Shown here piece by piece: positions 52,998 to 58,084 of a stretch of 64,000 nt of DNA (positions within the stretch are counted from its first letter, which is position 1; every line of letters begins with the position of its first letter). Position numbers and translations under genes: made by a program. Below the pieces are notes generated by a model. That model was not told the DNA's origin. It ran no database searches and worked only from the letters and a program-made list of their open reading frames with translations. This DNA is from Aequorivita sp. (GTDB lineage: Bacteria; Bacteroidota; Bacteroidia; Flavobacteriales; Flavobacteriaceae), in contig JAGXGE010000031.1 in the NCBI GenBank assembly GCA_024637015.1, forward strand, positions 62,001-126,000, in the 5' to 3' direction.

Positions 52998-53026
52998 AAA
53001 GCCGTTCAAGTTTTTTGGACGGCTTT
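52998..53026 (+). terminator. Terminator hairpin of glnN
   Basis: AAAGCCGTTC / GGACGGCTTT, 10-bp stem (one G-T pair), 9-base loop that itself contains TTTTTT; T-rich tail is short. Confidence 0.75.
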
Positions 53027-53041
53027 ATAATTTAACATATA

Positions 53042-53060
53042 TTTAACATATTGTGTTAAA
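53042..53060 (+). promoter_or_regulatory. 19-bp palindrome, possible operator
   Basis: TTTAACA-TATTG-TGTTAAA, a perfect 7-bp inverted repeat with a 5-base spacer. The left part also forms a direct repeat with TTTAACATAT at 53031-53040. It lies about 130 bases upstream of the curli promoter; a dimeric regulator could bind, but this is an inference. Confidence 0.35.
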
Positions 53061-53142
53061 TCAAATTTATGTGTATTTCATCGATATTTTGGCTATTTTA
53101 ATCCTGAAAATCAAAATTTAATGTAGGTAAAAACCTATTTTG

Positions 53143-53163
53143 AAAAGGGGTTTTCCCCCTTTT
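53143..53163 (+). terminator. Hairpin with T-run upstream of the curli promoter
   Basis: AAAAGGGG / CCCCTTTT, 8-bp stem with a 5-base loop, leading into further T residues. Could be a backup terminator for glnN, insulating the curli operon. Confidence 0.5.
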
Positions 53164-53187
53164 TAGGGGTTTGGCGTTTGTAACAGC

Positions 53188-53217
53188 TTGATTATTAATA
53201 TATATTTTTTATATTTG
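53188..53217 (+). promoter_or_regulatory. Promoter of the curli operon
   Basis: TTG (53188-53190) and TATATTTG (53210-53217) with 19 bases between; the second is a perfect TAnnTTTG. No closer consensus promoter was seen before the curlin start at 53479, which gives a long leader. Confidence 0.55.
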
Positions 53218-53408
53218 AATTGTCGTTGAGGTAGTAATATCAAAAACGATTCTCCTCAAAAGTGTTAAAACGCAAACCTATCCCCTAGTAAAAGAACCTT
53301 ATAAAAATTGGTTCATTTAAAGTATCCCTTATTTCTAAAATGTGTTTTAAATACATTTTAAAACATATCCCATTATATAAATCATTTTATGATGGTTTAT
53401 TATTTATC

Positions 53409-53426
53409 CAAGGAAGAAATTCCTTG
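53409..53426 (+). promoter_or_regulatory. GAAA-tetraloop hairpin in the curli leader
   Basis: CAAGGAA-GAAA-TTCCTTG is a perfect 7-bp stem with a GNRA-type tetraloop, 52 bases before the curlin ATG. In RNA it would be a compact, stable hairpin that could bind a protein or stabilise the transcript. Confidence 0.5.
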
Positions 53427-53478
53427 CTGAAAACTGAATATTATTTTAACCAAATATTAATCTTTAAATTTTTACATT

Positions 53479-54708
53479 ATGAAAAAATTATTTTTAGGTG
53501 CTGCGGCACTATTGTTAGCGGGCGGATTATTCGCTCAAAACACATCGAATTCTACTCAATCTGGCGACGATCAGAGAGTGTATGTAAGACAAGCAGGAAC
53601 AAACTTATCATCTGGCATTACTCAAGCTAATGGTGGTGGTGATGGATCACACCGTGCTATGGTATGGCAAAGAGGAGACGGTAATTCTTCTGCTATTGAT
53701 CAGTAAGGGTCTCGTAACGAGGCTTATGTAGATCAAGCTGCATTTACGCCTCCAACTAATGCTTCATCTACTATCAACCAAGGTAAAATCAATACCGCTA
53801 GTGCAGACAACAAAGCAAGCGTAAGACAGCATGGAGGTTCAGGTAGTGCAGCTACTATAAATCAAGATGGAGATTTAAACGAAGCTGCTACACATCAAGA
53901 TGGAACTGATGGTACAGTAACCATTAATCAAAATGGTACTGCAAACAAATCGTTAGTGCTACAAAGTCTTCTTGATTATTCAGCTGTTGGTAATTCTGCT
54001 ACTATCAACCAAACAGGTGATGAAAACTGCAGTACGGCAGTACAAGATGGTAATAACAATTCGTTGTCTGCTACACAGTCAGGAAGTGAAAATAAAGCAT
54101 ACCAATCTCAACTTGGTAATGGTAACACTACTAATTTAAATCAATCTGGAACCAATGGTACTGCTATACAGGTTCAAAATGGAGACAATAACTTAAATAA
54201 TCTTGTTTTCCAGACTGGAAGTAATAACTATTCAGAAGATAACCAAAATGGTAACGGCAATGAGATCTTTAAAGGTCAGCAAGGTGCCGATAACTATGGG
54301 CGTATTGACCAAACAGGAGATGGTAACTATACTTCTTTTGGACAGTATGGAACTAATAGTAAAGGATATGTACAACAAATTGGCAACAGCAATCAAATGA
54401 TCATGGGTCAATTTGCTGGAGATGGAAACCTAGCTTTTAGCTACCAAGATGATAACAATAATGGTGTTATCCAACAAGCAGGTGATGATAACCAAGCGTT
54501 GTTAGTTCAAAAATCTCAAGGTGGTGCAGGTCATTATGCTAATATTTACCAAAATGGTAATGGTAACATGGCGGATGTATTACAATTAGGTCCAAATGGC
54601 GATTTCGGTACTGATGGTGAAGACTGTATCTTCCCAGATCCACTTACAGTAGAATGTCCAACTGGTTTACCACCAGTTGTAATAAATGCTCCTTGTCCAG
54701 ATTGCTAA
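53479..54708 (+). pseudogene. csgA: Curlin-repeat (CsgA-like) amyloid subunit gene with one in-frame stop
   Basis: The frame runs 410 codons including the final stop, broken only by TAA at codon 76 (53704-53706). It starts with a signal peptide MKKLFLGAAALLLAGGLFAQ, followed by about fourteen imperfect curlin repeats of roughly 20 residues with the Qx(G/A)xxN pattern (for example ATINQTGDEN, VWQRGDGNSS). The stop falls at the variable position between Q and G of one repeat (IDQ-stop-GSRNEA). The downstream part is fully open to 54708, begins no plausible signal peptide and so cannot be a separate exported gene. Five cysteines occur, four of them in the last 30 residues (DCIF, VECP, APCPDC). 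Either truncated to 75 residues, a recent mutation, readthrough, or a sequencing error. Confidence 0.85.
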
Positions 54709-54740
54709 GCCGCTCTCGGATAATACACTTATTTAAAATT

Positions 54741-54772
54741 ATAAAGGAGGGCAGTTTTATGCCCTCCTTTAT
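54741..54772 (+). terminator. Strong hairpin after the curlin gene
   Basis: ATAAAGGAGGGC / GCCCTCCTTTAT perfect 12-bp stem, extendable to 14, loop of 8 bases. The T-run after it is weak (ATAATAAATT), so partial termination or 3'-end protection of the curlin message is more likely than full termination, because csgB and the secretion genes follow on the same strand. Confidence 0.6.
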
Positions 54773-54811
54773 AATAAATTAATATCTTTTTATAATAAAT
54801 TTAATATCTTT
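54771..54811 (+). repeat. Tandem 20-base direct repeat
   Basis: ATAATAAATTAATATCTTTT at 54771-54790 is repeated as ATAATAAATTTAATATCTTT at 54792-54811 with one base of indel. It sits directly after the hairpin. Confidence 0.7.
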
Positions 54812-54913
54812 AGGGCAAGCTTGTGCAAACCCGCTATTAGTAATGATTTTGTTTTAGCGGCACAGGCAAGGATGCTTTTAGAAAGAGATTTATAGAGCAT
54901 CCAGTCTTGCGGA

Positions 54914-54920
54914 GAGGTGA
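54914..54920 (+). promoter_or_regulatory. Perfect Shine-Dalgarno site of csgB
   Basis: GAGGTGA, fully complementary to the 3' end of 16S rRNA, 7 bases before the ATG at 54928. Such sites are uncommon in this phylum; other starts I looked at in the window lack one. Confidence 0.65.
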
Positions 54921-54927
54921 CTTAAAA

Positions 54928-55479
54928 ATGCAAATGATGAAGACAACAATAAAAAATATACTATTTGGTATCTTGGTCTCGGCCTTATTTATACCGATGG
55001 TTTCTGGTCAAACCTACAAACCGGAGGAAAATAATGCCAATGGAGACAAAAATATTATACAAGGTGAAAAGGTATCACCCGAAATGCTGGCAAACTTGGG
55101 GATTATGACTACGCCAAACCCCAAAAATGCACTTATTCAGGGAAATTCCGTATACGTTCGCCAAATAGGCGATTTCAATACTGCCAGAATTGTAACCAAC
55201 ACTAATGCCAGTGAAATAAATCTTCTCCAAAATGGAGATTATAACGATACTAATTTAGATTATACTGCTAACACAGCTGTGGCAGATCTTATACAAAATG
55301 GTAATAACAACCGTATTAGGGATTTTGCAAACAATCCAGATGCCGATATTTCCTTGGATCTTATTCAGGACGGGAGTTATCTAAACTTTGAGCGCGAAGG
55401 TGTTAACGAGCTTACCAAATCGTTAAAATTCAGACAAACGGAAGCCTCGCCTACAATAATAGTGAGAAGTTTTTACTAA
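54928..55479 (+). CDS. csgB: CsgB-like curlin nucleator
   Basis: A 183-residue exported protein (start MQMMKTTIKNILFGILVSAL; the next ATGs at codons 3 and 4 are alternatives). The signal peptide ends near VSGQ. The mature part contains imperfect curlin repeats: VYVRQIGDFNTARIV, INLLQNGDYND, VADLIQNGNNNRI and SLDLIQDGSYLNF. It ends with a divergent repeat and the C-terminal SPTIIVRSFY, like the C-terminus of CsgB that anchors it to the outer membrane. Expected to nucleate curlin fibres. A structured stretch and a perfect Shine-Dalgarno site precede it; the gene for CsgE follows immediately. Confidence 0.85.
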   Translation: MQMMKTTIKNILFGILVSALFIPMVSGQTYKPEENNANGDKNIIQGEKVSPEMLANLGIMTTPNPKNALIQGNSVYVRQIGDFNTARIVTNTNASEINLLQNGDYNDTNLDYTANTAVADLIQNGNNNRIRDFANNPDADISLDLIQDGSYLNFEREGVNELTKSLKFRQTEASPTIIVRSFY

Positions 55480-55509
55480 ATGAACCGTTTTCAAACACAT
55501 ATTGATAAA

Positions 55510-56280
55510 ATGAAAAATTATCTCTTAGCCGTAATTACGCTTTTCATAACTTTAGGTGTGAATGCGCAATTCTACAATAAAGAGTATGTTAGTAAGATTC
55601 TTGTGAAAAAAGATAGTGAATTCTTCACCTTTGCCGCGACCGCGGAAAACATTACCCCGACGGATATTAATCTTAAATATGATTTCAGTCTTTATCAGAC
55701 GGATGCCAACAATAACGTTTCTAGAAGCAACCAATCCGATCGTTTCTTTTTAAAGGGGAATGAAAAAAAAGTGCTCTCCACAGTAACCGTAAATTACAAC
55801 ACTGAAGGAAAAATTACGCTGGTGCTGATGTTATATGACAGTGACGACAAACCCGTAGGACAGGACCGTATTGAGTTAAGTTCAGAAAAGGGTTATCAAG
55901 AAATAATTAGTGATAAACTGTCCCCCCAAGAGGAGACGGCAAGCGCAGACCAGGCTAAACCACAGGATGGATACTTAATGGATGGATTGGTTGTGGAAAA
56001 TACCTTGACCAAAGCGGGACGTGATTTTTATAAATATTTTTATTCCGAATATTTCAATCGTGGAATACAAACTAAAAAAAATATAATAATTGAAGAAGTT
56101 CCAGGAAGAATGCGAAGCACAAGGATTTCTGTAAAAATAGACGACCAATTACTGTGGCAATTTTTTTCGCAACCTAAAAAATCTTTTTTACAAAGTATGG
56201 CTAAGACGGCATTAGGCAGATGCATTGCGTATCTTCAACAACTTCAAAAGCAAAAAGAGAATTCCATAACACGATATTGA
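55510..56280 (+). CDS. csgE: CsgE with an added N-terminal beta-sandwich domain
   Basis: A 256-residue protein. A signal peptide MKNYLLAVITLFITLGVNA precedes a beta-sandwich-like domain (about residues 20-125, with YVSKILVKKDSEFFTF, FSLYQTDANNN and ITLVLMLYDSDDKP) that resembles the CsgC/CsgH fold by layout, a low-complexity linker (LSPQEETASADQAKPQD), and the CsgE domain (about 157-256: GLVVENTLTKAGRDFYKYF, VPGRMRSTRISVKIDD, LLWQFFSQPKKSFLQSM). E. coli CsgE consists of the second domain only. CsgE plugs the CsgG pore and routes subunits. A start at 55480 (30 bases earlier, directly at the csgB stop) would place the signal after 10 residues and is less likely. Confidence 0.85.
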   Translation: MKNYLLAVITLFITLGVNAQFYNKEYVSKILVKKDSEFFTFAATAENITPTDINLKYDFSLYQTDANNNVSRSNQSDRFFLKGNEKKVLSTVTVNYNTEGKITLVLMLYDSDDKPVGQDRIELSSEKGYQEIISDKLSPQEETASADQAKPQDGYLMDGLVVENTLTKAGRDFYKYFYSEYFNRGIQTKKNIIIEEVPGRMRSTRISVKIDDQLLWQFFSQPKKSFLQSMAKTALGRCIAYLQQLQKQKENSITRY

Positions 56281-56281
56281 G

Positions 56282-56692
56282 ATGAAAATATTTAAACTAC
56301 TTTCTATAACTGTATTGCTATTTATTGGAACTGCTGGTTTCGCCCAACAGTTTTCTTATAAACCGTTGAACCCTGCTTTTGGAGGGGATACCTTCAATTA
56401 TAACTGGCTACTAAGTTCAGCCACTTCCCAAAATAAACTTACCACCCCCGCCAATCAAAGGAATCAGCGCTCTGAACTGGAACAGTTTGGAGAGAATCTG
56501 AATAGGCAATTGTTGAGCCAAATTTCGCGGCAACTACTCCAGCAACAATTTGGTGGATTTGATTTTAGTCAAGAGGGAACTTATACTTATGGCAGCTTAA
56601 ATATTGAAATTTTTCAATCTGACGAAGGATTGGTAATAAATATCTTAGATACCTCCACTGGAGAGGAAACACAAGTTATTGTCCCAAATTAA
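56282..56692 (+). CDS. csgF: Curli assembly protein CsgF
   Basis: A 136-residue exported protein: signal MKIFKLLSITVLLFIGTAGF, then FSYKPLNPAFGGDTFNYNWL, the CsgF signature that inserts into the CsgG pore, then a helical segment rich in Q (NRQLLSQISRQLLQQQFGG) and a beta C-terminus. In the E. coli system CsgF couples secretion to nucleation at the cell surface. It lies 1 base after csgE and 9 bases before csgG. Confidence 0.95.
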   Translation: MKIFKLLSITVLLFIGTAGFAQQFSYKPLNPAFGGDTFNYNWLLSSATSQNKLTTPANQRNQRSELEQFGENLNRQLLSQISRQLLQQQFGGFDFSQEGTYTYGSLNIEIFQSDEGLVINILDTSTGEETQVIVPN

Positions 56693-56701
56693 ACTAATTT
56701 C

Positions 56702-58084
56702 ATGAAAATATTTTTCAGAACAATTTCCTTGATAGGAATTTTATTATTTTCTTCCTGTGGAGCCTACCTTAATCCACCATTGTATCAAGAGGCTTCGCGT
56801 ACCGGAGAATTTTCCAAATCTACACAACCCCTTTTAGATCTGCCACCTGCCGCCCAACCCGTGGAAGTCGCGGTCTATAATTTCAGTGACCAAACAGGAC
56901 AGTATAAAGCTGTTGAAAGCGGTAGTACCTTCAGCACGGCTATTTCGCAGGGAGGAACAACAATGTTAATAAAAGCCTTGGAAGATTCGGGATGGTTTAT
57001 TCCCATTGAACGGGAAAATTTGAGCAATCTATCTACAGAAAGAAATATTATTAGAAATACGAAACAGGAATATATAAAAAATTTTAACCCCGATGAGCCG
57101 CCATTGCCACCGCTTTTATATGCTGGGATAATTTTGGAAGGCGGTGTAATTTCTTACGATACCAACATTATTACTGGTGGGATAGGAGCGCGTTATTTTG
57201 GATTGGGAGGATCTGCAAAATATAGACAGGATAGAATAACTGTTTATTTGCGGGCGGTTTCAACCAGCAATGGAGAAATTTTGAAAACGGTATATGTTTC
57301 AAAAACAATTCTTTCGCAAGCAATTGATGCCAGTTTTTTTCGATTTGTTAAATTTCAAAGATTGTTGGAAGCGGAGACCGGAGTTACCCAAAATGAGCCT
57401 GTACAGCTAGCAATGAAAGATGCCATAGAAAAAGCAGTGCACGATCTTATTATTGAAGGAATTCAAAAGCAATTCTGGAGTACTCAGGGGGGTAAGGAAG
57501 TAAATGATCAATTGGTCACAGATTATATGGCAGAAAAGGAAAAAGAAGAATCAACACTACTCTTTGATAGATTACAAGTGCTAAGGGAAGCTCAAAACTC
57601 GCTGGGAATTTCAGTAGGCGGTAACTTGCCTGATAATGATTACAAAACTCAGGATATTGGATTTTTGGGTCGTTTGGAGTATCAAAGACATTTTGGCCGT
57701 TATTTTAATGTTGGTCTTAAAGCTTCTGTCTTTAGGATTGATAATGGAATTCAATATAGAAATGTTTTTGGAAGTGCAGATTTAAATGGTCAGTTTGCAT
57801 TATTGCCCAATGATAAGTTAACTCCCTATATTTACGCTGGTTCTGGAGTAATAATAAGTCTTTTAGATCCAAAAAATGATAATGCTTTTGATACTGGGGA
57901 ACCATTTTTCAAAGTTCAATATGGCGTAGGTCTGGAATATTTTATTTCAAATAAAGTTGGAGTTAAATTATTTGGAGAGCACAATCTTGTTTTTACCGAT
58001 AAGCTTGAGAAAGCTGTTCAGGGAAAAAGAAACGATTTTTACTATAATATTGGGGTCGGCTTAAATTATTATTTTAAGTTATAA
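56702..58084 (+). CDS. csgG: CsgG secretion channel with a C-terminal outer-membrane beta-barrel-like domain
   Basis: A 460-residue lipoprotein, lipobox cysteine at residue 19 (LLFSSC). Residues 20-262 are a normal CsgG: VEVAVYNFSDQTGQYKAVES, FSTAISQGGTTMLIKALEDS, WFIPIERENLSNL, GGVISYDTNIITGGIGARYF and FVKFQRLLEAETGVTQNEP. The E. coli protein ends about here at 277 residues. After a charged helical linker (about 263-295) comes a domain of about 165 residues (LGRLEYQRHFGRYFNVGL, YIYAGSGVIISLLDP, VKLFGEHNLVF) with alternating beta strands ending in NYYFKL, like a small outer-membrane barrel. Confidence 0.92.
   Translation: MKIFFRTISLIGILLFSSCGAYLNPPLYQEASRTGEFSKSTQPLLDLPPAAQPVEVAVYNFSDQTGQYKAVESGSTFSTAISQGGTTMLIKALEDSGWFIPIERENLSNLSTERNIIRNTKQEYIKNFNPDEPPLPPLLYAGIILEGGVISYDTNIITGGIGARYFGLGGSAKYRQDRITVYLRAVSTSNGEILKTVYVSKTILSQAIDASFFRFVKFQRLLEAETGVTQNEPVQLAMKDAIEKAVHDLIIEGIQKQFWSTQGGKEVNDQLVTDYMAEKEKEESTLLFDRLQVLREAQNSLGISVGGNLPDNDYKTQDIGFLGRLEYQRHFGRYFNVGLKASVFRIDNGIQYRNVFGSADLNGQFALLPNDKLTPYIYAGSGVIISLLDPKNDNAFDTGEPFFKVQYGVGLEYFISNKVGVKLFGEHNLVFTDKLEKAVQGKRNDFYYNIGVGLNYYFKL

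Follow-up and report, generated by a model that had tools for sequence, protein, structure and literature searches.

A probable nonsense allele of the only major curlin gene found in an Aequorivita sp. draft genome

Curli systems and the Aequorivita locus

Curli (type VIII secretion) systems of Bacteroidota are encoded by csg loci. As stated in PMC3521004, CsgA and CsgB are not separated by sequence outside the Gammaproteobacteria. Natural loss of the curli/biofilm programme is described, in part of the text of PMC6611641, for invasive Salmonella carrying premature stops in csgD and bcsG. A search of open-licence papers for Aequorivita curli and for premature stops or nonsense mutations in csgA yielded no report of the allele described here.

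The window analysed is a stretch of 64,000 nucleotides (G000:C5:62001-126000) from the 3.22-Mb draft genome of an Aequorivita sp. (Flavobacteriaceae; 39 contigs, 99.98 % complete). Aequorivita todarodis KCTC 62141 (L037), the species to which G011 probably belongs, is among its near relatives. It resembles the csg systems of Bacteroidota in harbouring a csgA-csgB-csgE-csgF-csgG set with Pfam-recognised CsgE, CsgF and CsgG as well as curlin repeats.

The interrupted curlin gene

The csgA-type curlin gene occupies positions 53479-54708 on the forward strand and comprises 410 codons including its natural stop. Translation confirmed the in-frame TAA at codon 76 (53704-53706) reported in the initial annotation: the frame runs for 75 residues, meets the TAA, continues for 333 open codons and ends at the natural TAA (54706-54708). 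The frame behind the stop is thus open as described before, the earlier count of 334 codons having included the final stop. The 5' part (53479-53706) encodes a signal-peptide-like start, judged from the sequence by eye, and the first repeats (Curlin_rpt PF07012, E 3.6e-6), and its 75 residues align to residues 1-75 of the whole relatives. The remainder (53707-54708, forward strand) matches PF07012 in five stretches (E 1.5e-24) and is 77 % identical to the whole CsgA of A. todarodis. Both pieces therefore show the curlin repeats (Q-x-G-x-x-N...) expected of a secreted CsgA-type protein, while the TAA at codon 76 precludes a full-length, export-competent product. Judged by its sequence, the gene belongs to the CsgA family through its ancestry, albeit in cut form. 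Since the alignment to relatives is collinear over 409 codons (gap-free versus G011 and G001) and identity to A. todarodis amounts to 77-79 % on both sides of the stop, the latter truly belongs to the assembled sequence.

The premature stop separates Q from G in one curlin repeat, at a variable residue. Sense codons are found there in A. todarodis (G011), G001, G016 and two Lacinutrix copies, with three different residues in the three Aequorivita relatives, in agreement with the variability noted previously. The ancestral codon had been proposed to be CAA or AAA; the codons of the relatives differ from both. At the other end of the gene (54620-54708 in the window), a tail resembling that of many Aequorivita curlins is present, its last residues following the pattern C-x-x-C (CPDC, CPGC or CSGC).

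A six-frame search of the draft genome with the curlin repeat family returned five matches at E <= 0.001, all within csgA, and a search with the downstream part of csgA retrieved, besides csgA itself, only the CsgB-like gene. The lack of a second full-length curlin, noted initially for the vicinity, hence extends to the whole draft assembly searched, although a copy may have been lost in a contig gap. A plasmid search of the curli locus found nothing.

The promoter/leader region upstream of csgA (53240-53478, forward strand) is conserved in an alignment with three relatives, including its inverted repeats. In the window copy, short inverted repeats CAAGGAA..TTCCTTG and TGTTTTAAA..TTTAAAACA are present, perhaps representing a regulator site. 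Promoter-like sites were no more frequent than by chance (13 found versus 11.3 expected).

Helper genes of the curli locus

Downstream of csgA, four intact genes follow on the forward strand: (i) a candidate for the CsgB-like minor curlin/nucleator (54931-55479), (ii) csgE (55510-56280; PF10627, E 8.8e-19, residues 157-250), its product carrying an N-terminal CsgH/CsgC-like stretch, (iii) csgF (56282-56692; PF10614, E 1.4e-37) and (iv) csgG (56702-58084; PF03783, E 4.4e-65), encoding the secretion pore with a C-terminal barrel-like extension and matching solved CsgG chains at E of about 3e-62. CsgE, CsgF and CsgG all score above the Pfam cut-offs, and the adjacency of the pore to CsgE and CsgF is that of a curli secretion system. 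The earlier statement that CsgB, CsgE, CsgF and CsgG are intact stands for all four open frames and, by Pfam, for the identity of the latter three. The CsgB-like gene is named by its position and a weak NCBIfam CsgA match below cut-off (E 1.7e-6); its product exceeds no profile cut-off and shows no PF07012 match at E 0.01.

Residues 47-113 of CsgE resemble the CsgH/CsgC amyloid chaperones (NF041112, E 1.6e-5, about 25-26 bits versus a cut-off of 35 bits), and the same two-part CsgH/CsgC-like plus CsgE match occurs in Lacinutrix (L036:7818-8621). The C-terminal extension of CsgG, about 180 residues long, looks like a beta-barrel of the outer membrane (match to PF13505 below the cut-off, E 2.7e-5).

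Decay of the helper genes was not borne out by their replacement counts. Unique replacements at otherwise invariant columns number one each in CsgB, CsgE and CsgF and four in CsgG, showing no excess over the 0-4, 0-9, 0-4 and 0-12, respectively, in 13-14 other genomes. Six divergent sets, one from Lacinutrix and five from Aequorivita, did not enter this comparison, nor did G007, G023 and, for csgE, G006. An apparent interruption of csgE in G006 proved to be an artefact of start choice, the frame being open. In the protein trees, the CsgB-like protein has the shortest window branch of the four helpers (0.011, versus 0.021-0.057 for the other three). In the CsgB tree, the branches of the nearest relatives G001, G011 and G016 measure 0.067-0.087, and that of G004 (0.0015) is shorter than that of the window. 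The omega of the csgB-like gene on the window branch is 0.11, with no significant difference from the other branches.

The low divergence of the CsgB-like protein, which has changed less than the other three helpers, together with the lack of a sequence distinction between CsgA and CsgB outside the Gammaproteobacteria stated in PMC3521004, could be taken to mean that export still matters despite the cut csgA, with the CsgB-like subunit polymerising outside the cell, alone or with the 75-residue stub. Against this, PF07012 does not match the CsgB-like protein at E 0.01, and all 22 genus genomes with CsgF also possess curlin repeats, rendering such a continued role quite improbable. Of 28 genus genomes, 22 contain CsgF and the identical 22 contain curlin repeats, so that no long retention of the machinery without the subunit gene is seen. 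If the two are kept or lost together in the genus, as this pattern suggests, long survival of the helper genes without csgA would be unlikely, which favours either a young loss or an error.

Curlin genes of relatives

The orthologues of the three nearest relatives (G011, G001 and G016) are whole, with stop-to-stop frames of 410, 415 and 422 codons. A sample of 397 family genomes yielded 35 curlin matches at E <= 1e-15, spread over 22 genomes of which three belong to the genus; a stop occurs in none of these matches but the window curlin. Within the genus, 21 further genomes bear curlin, and a curlin stretch was read from 20 of them, with G007 and the second curlin loci of G004, G018, G020 and G023 left aside; in G024, no curlin frame passed the filter.

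Other curlin genes with disturbed frames were encountered. In G020 (L054 10464-11938), an additional csgA copy is frameshifted next to whole paralogues. Lacinutrix neustonica (L036 4256-7110) carries two tandem csgA copies that lost the frame at the identical site behind the signal peptide; since adjacent glutamine-synthetase-like frames are broken too, a systematic assembly error is likely there. A TAA flagged in the curlin of G023 turned out to be the natural gene end.

Quality of the consensus sequence

An error of sequencing or assembly had been named as an option in the initial annotation. The TAA might be such a wrong single base, or stem from a mixed or cultured population whose mutant base entered the consensus. 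The genome is a draft of 39 contigs, one base would suffice, and curlin genes are repetitive and, in G004, G018 and G019 among the relatives, lie at the end of a contig. The consensus is, however, not generally error-rich: in 114 kb of the contig, 64 (G001) and 68 (G011) of the relatives' non-overlapping ORFs were matched at >=40 % identity, and in both comparisons no gene body but that of csgA contained a stop. Ten other flags (three versus G001, seven versus G011) correspond, in the window sequence, to intact ORFs with a different start or end, or to frames that overlap an intact ORF read in a different frame or on the opposite strand. Moreover, the presence of a single curlin copy makes a collapse of paralogues less likely. 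An error at this one base is rather unlikely, and less likely than initially implied. The absence of other body stops in the matched contig genes also lends no support to a genome-wide reassignment of the stop codon.

Age of the stop codon

Behind the premature stop, no further stop has arisen in 333 codons and no indel relative to G011 and G001, on a window branch with about 76 substitutions in this part according to the codon model. Full neutrality over the branch would predict 2.9 further stops (P of none 0.063), and neutrality over half of it yields a P of 0.23; full neutrality across the whole window branch is thus weakly rejected. Behind the stop, the window branch has a dN/dS ratio of 0.84 and the remaining branches one of 0.31 (2dlnL 4.92; chi-square p 0.027, uncorrected for the number of branches tried). 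None of 60 simulations reached this 2dlnL and one of 60 reached that omega. The ratio of the window branch is indistinguishable from 1 behind the stop and clearly below 1 before it (0.12).

The raised downstream ratio would be expected if constraint on the part behind the stop had been relaxed during some portion of the branch, and argues for a loss older than "very recent", one of the options given initially. It is counterbalanced by the G011 branch, which deviates as strongly behind the stop in the downward direction (2dlnL 5.12), and by the uneven synonymous distances of the locus, where the csgG of G011 groups elsewhere. The earlier dating is backed by the absence of further stops and indels, but it is opposed by the raised dN/dS and by the fact that full neutrality is no more than weakly rejected; from these comparisons, the stop may be recent or date back some fraction of the window branch.

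Decay of the repeat motif was assessed in columns agreed on by the other two genomes. At Q/G/N columns, 14 of 110 had changed in the window, 10 of 106 in G001 and 4 of 100 in G011; at other columns, the respective counts were 29 of 166, 15 of 152 and 10 of 147. Change is thus greatest in the window, with Q/G/N columns no more affected than the others.

Synonymous distances are uneven across the curli locus. For csgG, dN/dS is raised on the window branch (0.34 versus 0.029, p 0.0007) and also for codons 1-280 (0.12 versus 0.025, p 0.04). Since the two parts of csgG prefer different trees, this test is confused by recombination. The csgG of G011 (L042) groups with those of G013 and G004 and has a high synonymous distance to the window, unlike csgA and csgB of G011, a pattern that on phylogenetic grounds indicates recombination inside the curli locus.

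Sequence context of the stop and possible bypass

Directly after the stop, at 53707-53725 of the forward strand, a folding comparison revealed an 8-bp inverted repeat (GGGTCTCG-TAA-CGAGGCTT). This hairpin is the second strongest of the gene among 24-base stretches, and its strength is matched by 0.35 % of 6000 24-mers sampled from the window, a value uncorrected for the several offsets tried. Among relatives, it is weaker in G016, absent in G011 and replaced by a different, weaker one in G001. The repeat may constitute a mutation hot spot: according to part of the text of PMC7202029, imperfect inverted repeats are such hot spots, with changes rendering the repeat more perfect. The window resembles this quasipalindrome-associated mutation in that the stop abuts an inverted repeat more complete than that of G016. 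It differs from the account in that part of PMC7202029 in that only one of the three window/G016 differences in the arm falls within the 8-bp stem, the other two lying outside it in the stop codon; the three need not stem from a single event. One may guess that the hairpin tells how the stop arose.

The same hairpin, starting at the base next to the UAA, and the open downstream frame might be regarded as hints at regulated readthrough or recoding, as proposed in the initial annotation. Some ribosomes would then pass the stop, yielding an excess of stub plus a little full-length curlin and hence a dose control of the amyloid, a scheme to which we attach hardly any credence. The 120-nt fold around the stop is ordinary (z -1.17), and the stop is conserved in no relative examined, the comparison including no second strain of the species. 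Furthermore, UAA is recognised by both release factors, as stated in a portion of PMC5605706, and all 33 tRNA genes found (150 of 261 first-look candidates scored) carry sense anticodons, an ochre suppressor being absent among them. Readthrough is therefore very improbable, and the earlier proposal was not upheld.

Nor did the locus bear out the suggestion of a strain-level phase state that flips codon 76 back and forth. Matrix fibres are costly shared goods, so that non-producers can be favoured, which would lend such a state some sense. High-rate switching is, however, not achieved by a plain base change, and neither a tract nor an invertible element is present at the codon: repeats of at least 14 bases in 53000-55500 comprise copies of the curlin repeat and short direct and inverted pairs, none of which spans codon 76. 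The probability of a phase state is practically negligible.

Predicted product and preferred interpretation

The modelled whole relative from A. todarodis (pLDDT 79.6) comprises 30 strands, the fifth of which ends at residue 75. A fold search of the PDB with this model gave no hit at E <= 0.001, the best being a weak one to CsgA of Pontibacter korlensis (E 9e-3, TM 0.26); at the sequence level, the downstream csgA piece matches this solved curlin (8c50) firmly (E 1.9e-18). By the model, the stub would keep one sixth of the curlin strands.

Taken together, we favour, with a probability of roughly 0.75, the reading that the only csgA found in the draft carries a naturally arisen nonsense mutation by which curli assembly is stopped, i.e. 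an ordinary and fairly young gene loss. The conserved region upstream of csgA speaks for this reading as well. Ribosomes would stop at codon 76 and at most a secreted stub of 75 residues be formed, which with about 5 of 30 predicted solenoid strands is presumably unable to build a fibre. The 333-codon remainder would not be made or, lacking the 5' part, not be exported. Persistence of the genes for CsgB, CsgE, CsgF and CsgG may reflect a loss that is young relative to the window branch, and the strain or isolate is probably curli-negative, given a CsgA cut to such a stub. The assembled sequence shows the stop, a single csgA in the draft, intact helper genes and whole orthologues in relatives; loss of the fibre, its age and the presence of the stop in the living strain are what we infer from it.

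Comparison with known curli systems

Knowledge of curli or of decoding is unchanged by the codon-76 allele. If real, the allele would provide a clean natural curli-null in a genus in which curlin repeats and CsgF go together (22 of 28 genomes), and a small, testable case for the pace of helper-gene decay after loss of the subunit.

A parallel is invasive Salmonella (PMC6611641), likewise with premature stops in a biofilm-matrix pathway of which other genes are kept. There, a regulator and a cellulose gene are cut, whereas in the window the fibre subunit itself is affected, and in another phylum. With respect to the csg systems of Bacteroidota, the locus differs in its main subunit gene, cut at codon 76 in the window and whole in G011, G001 and G016.
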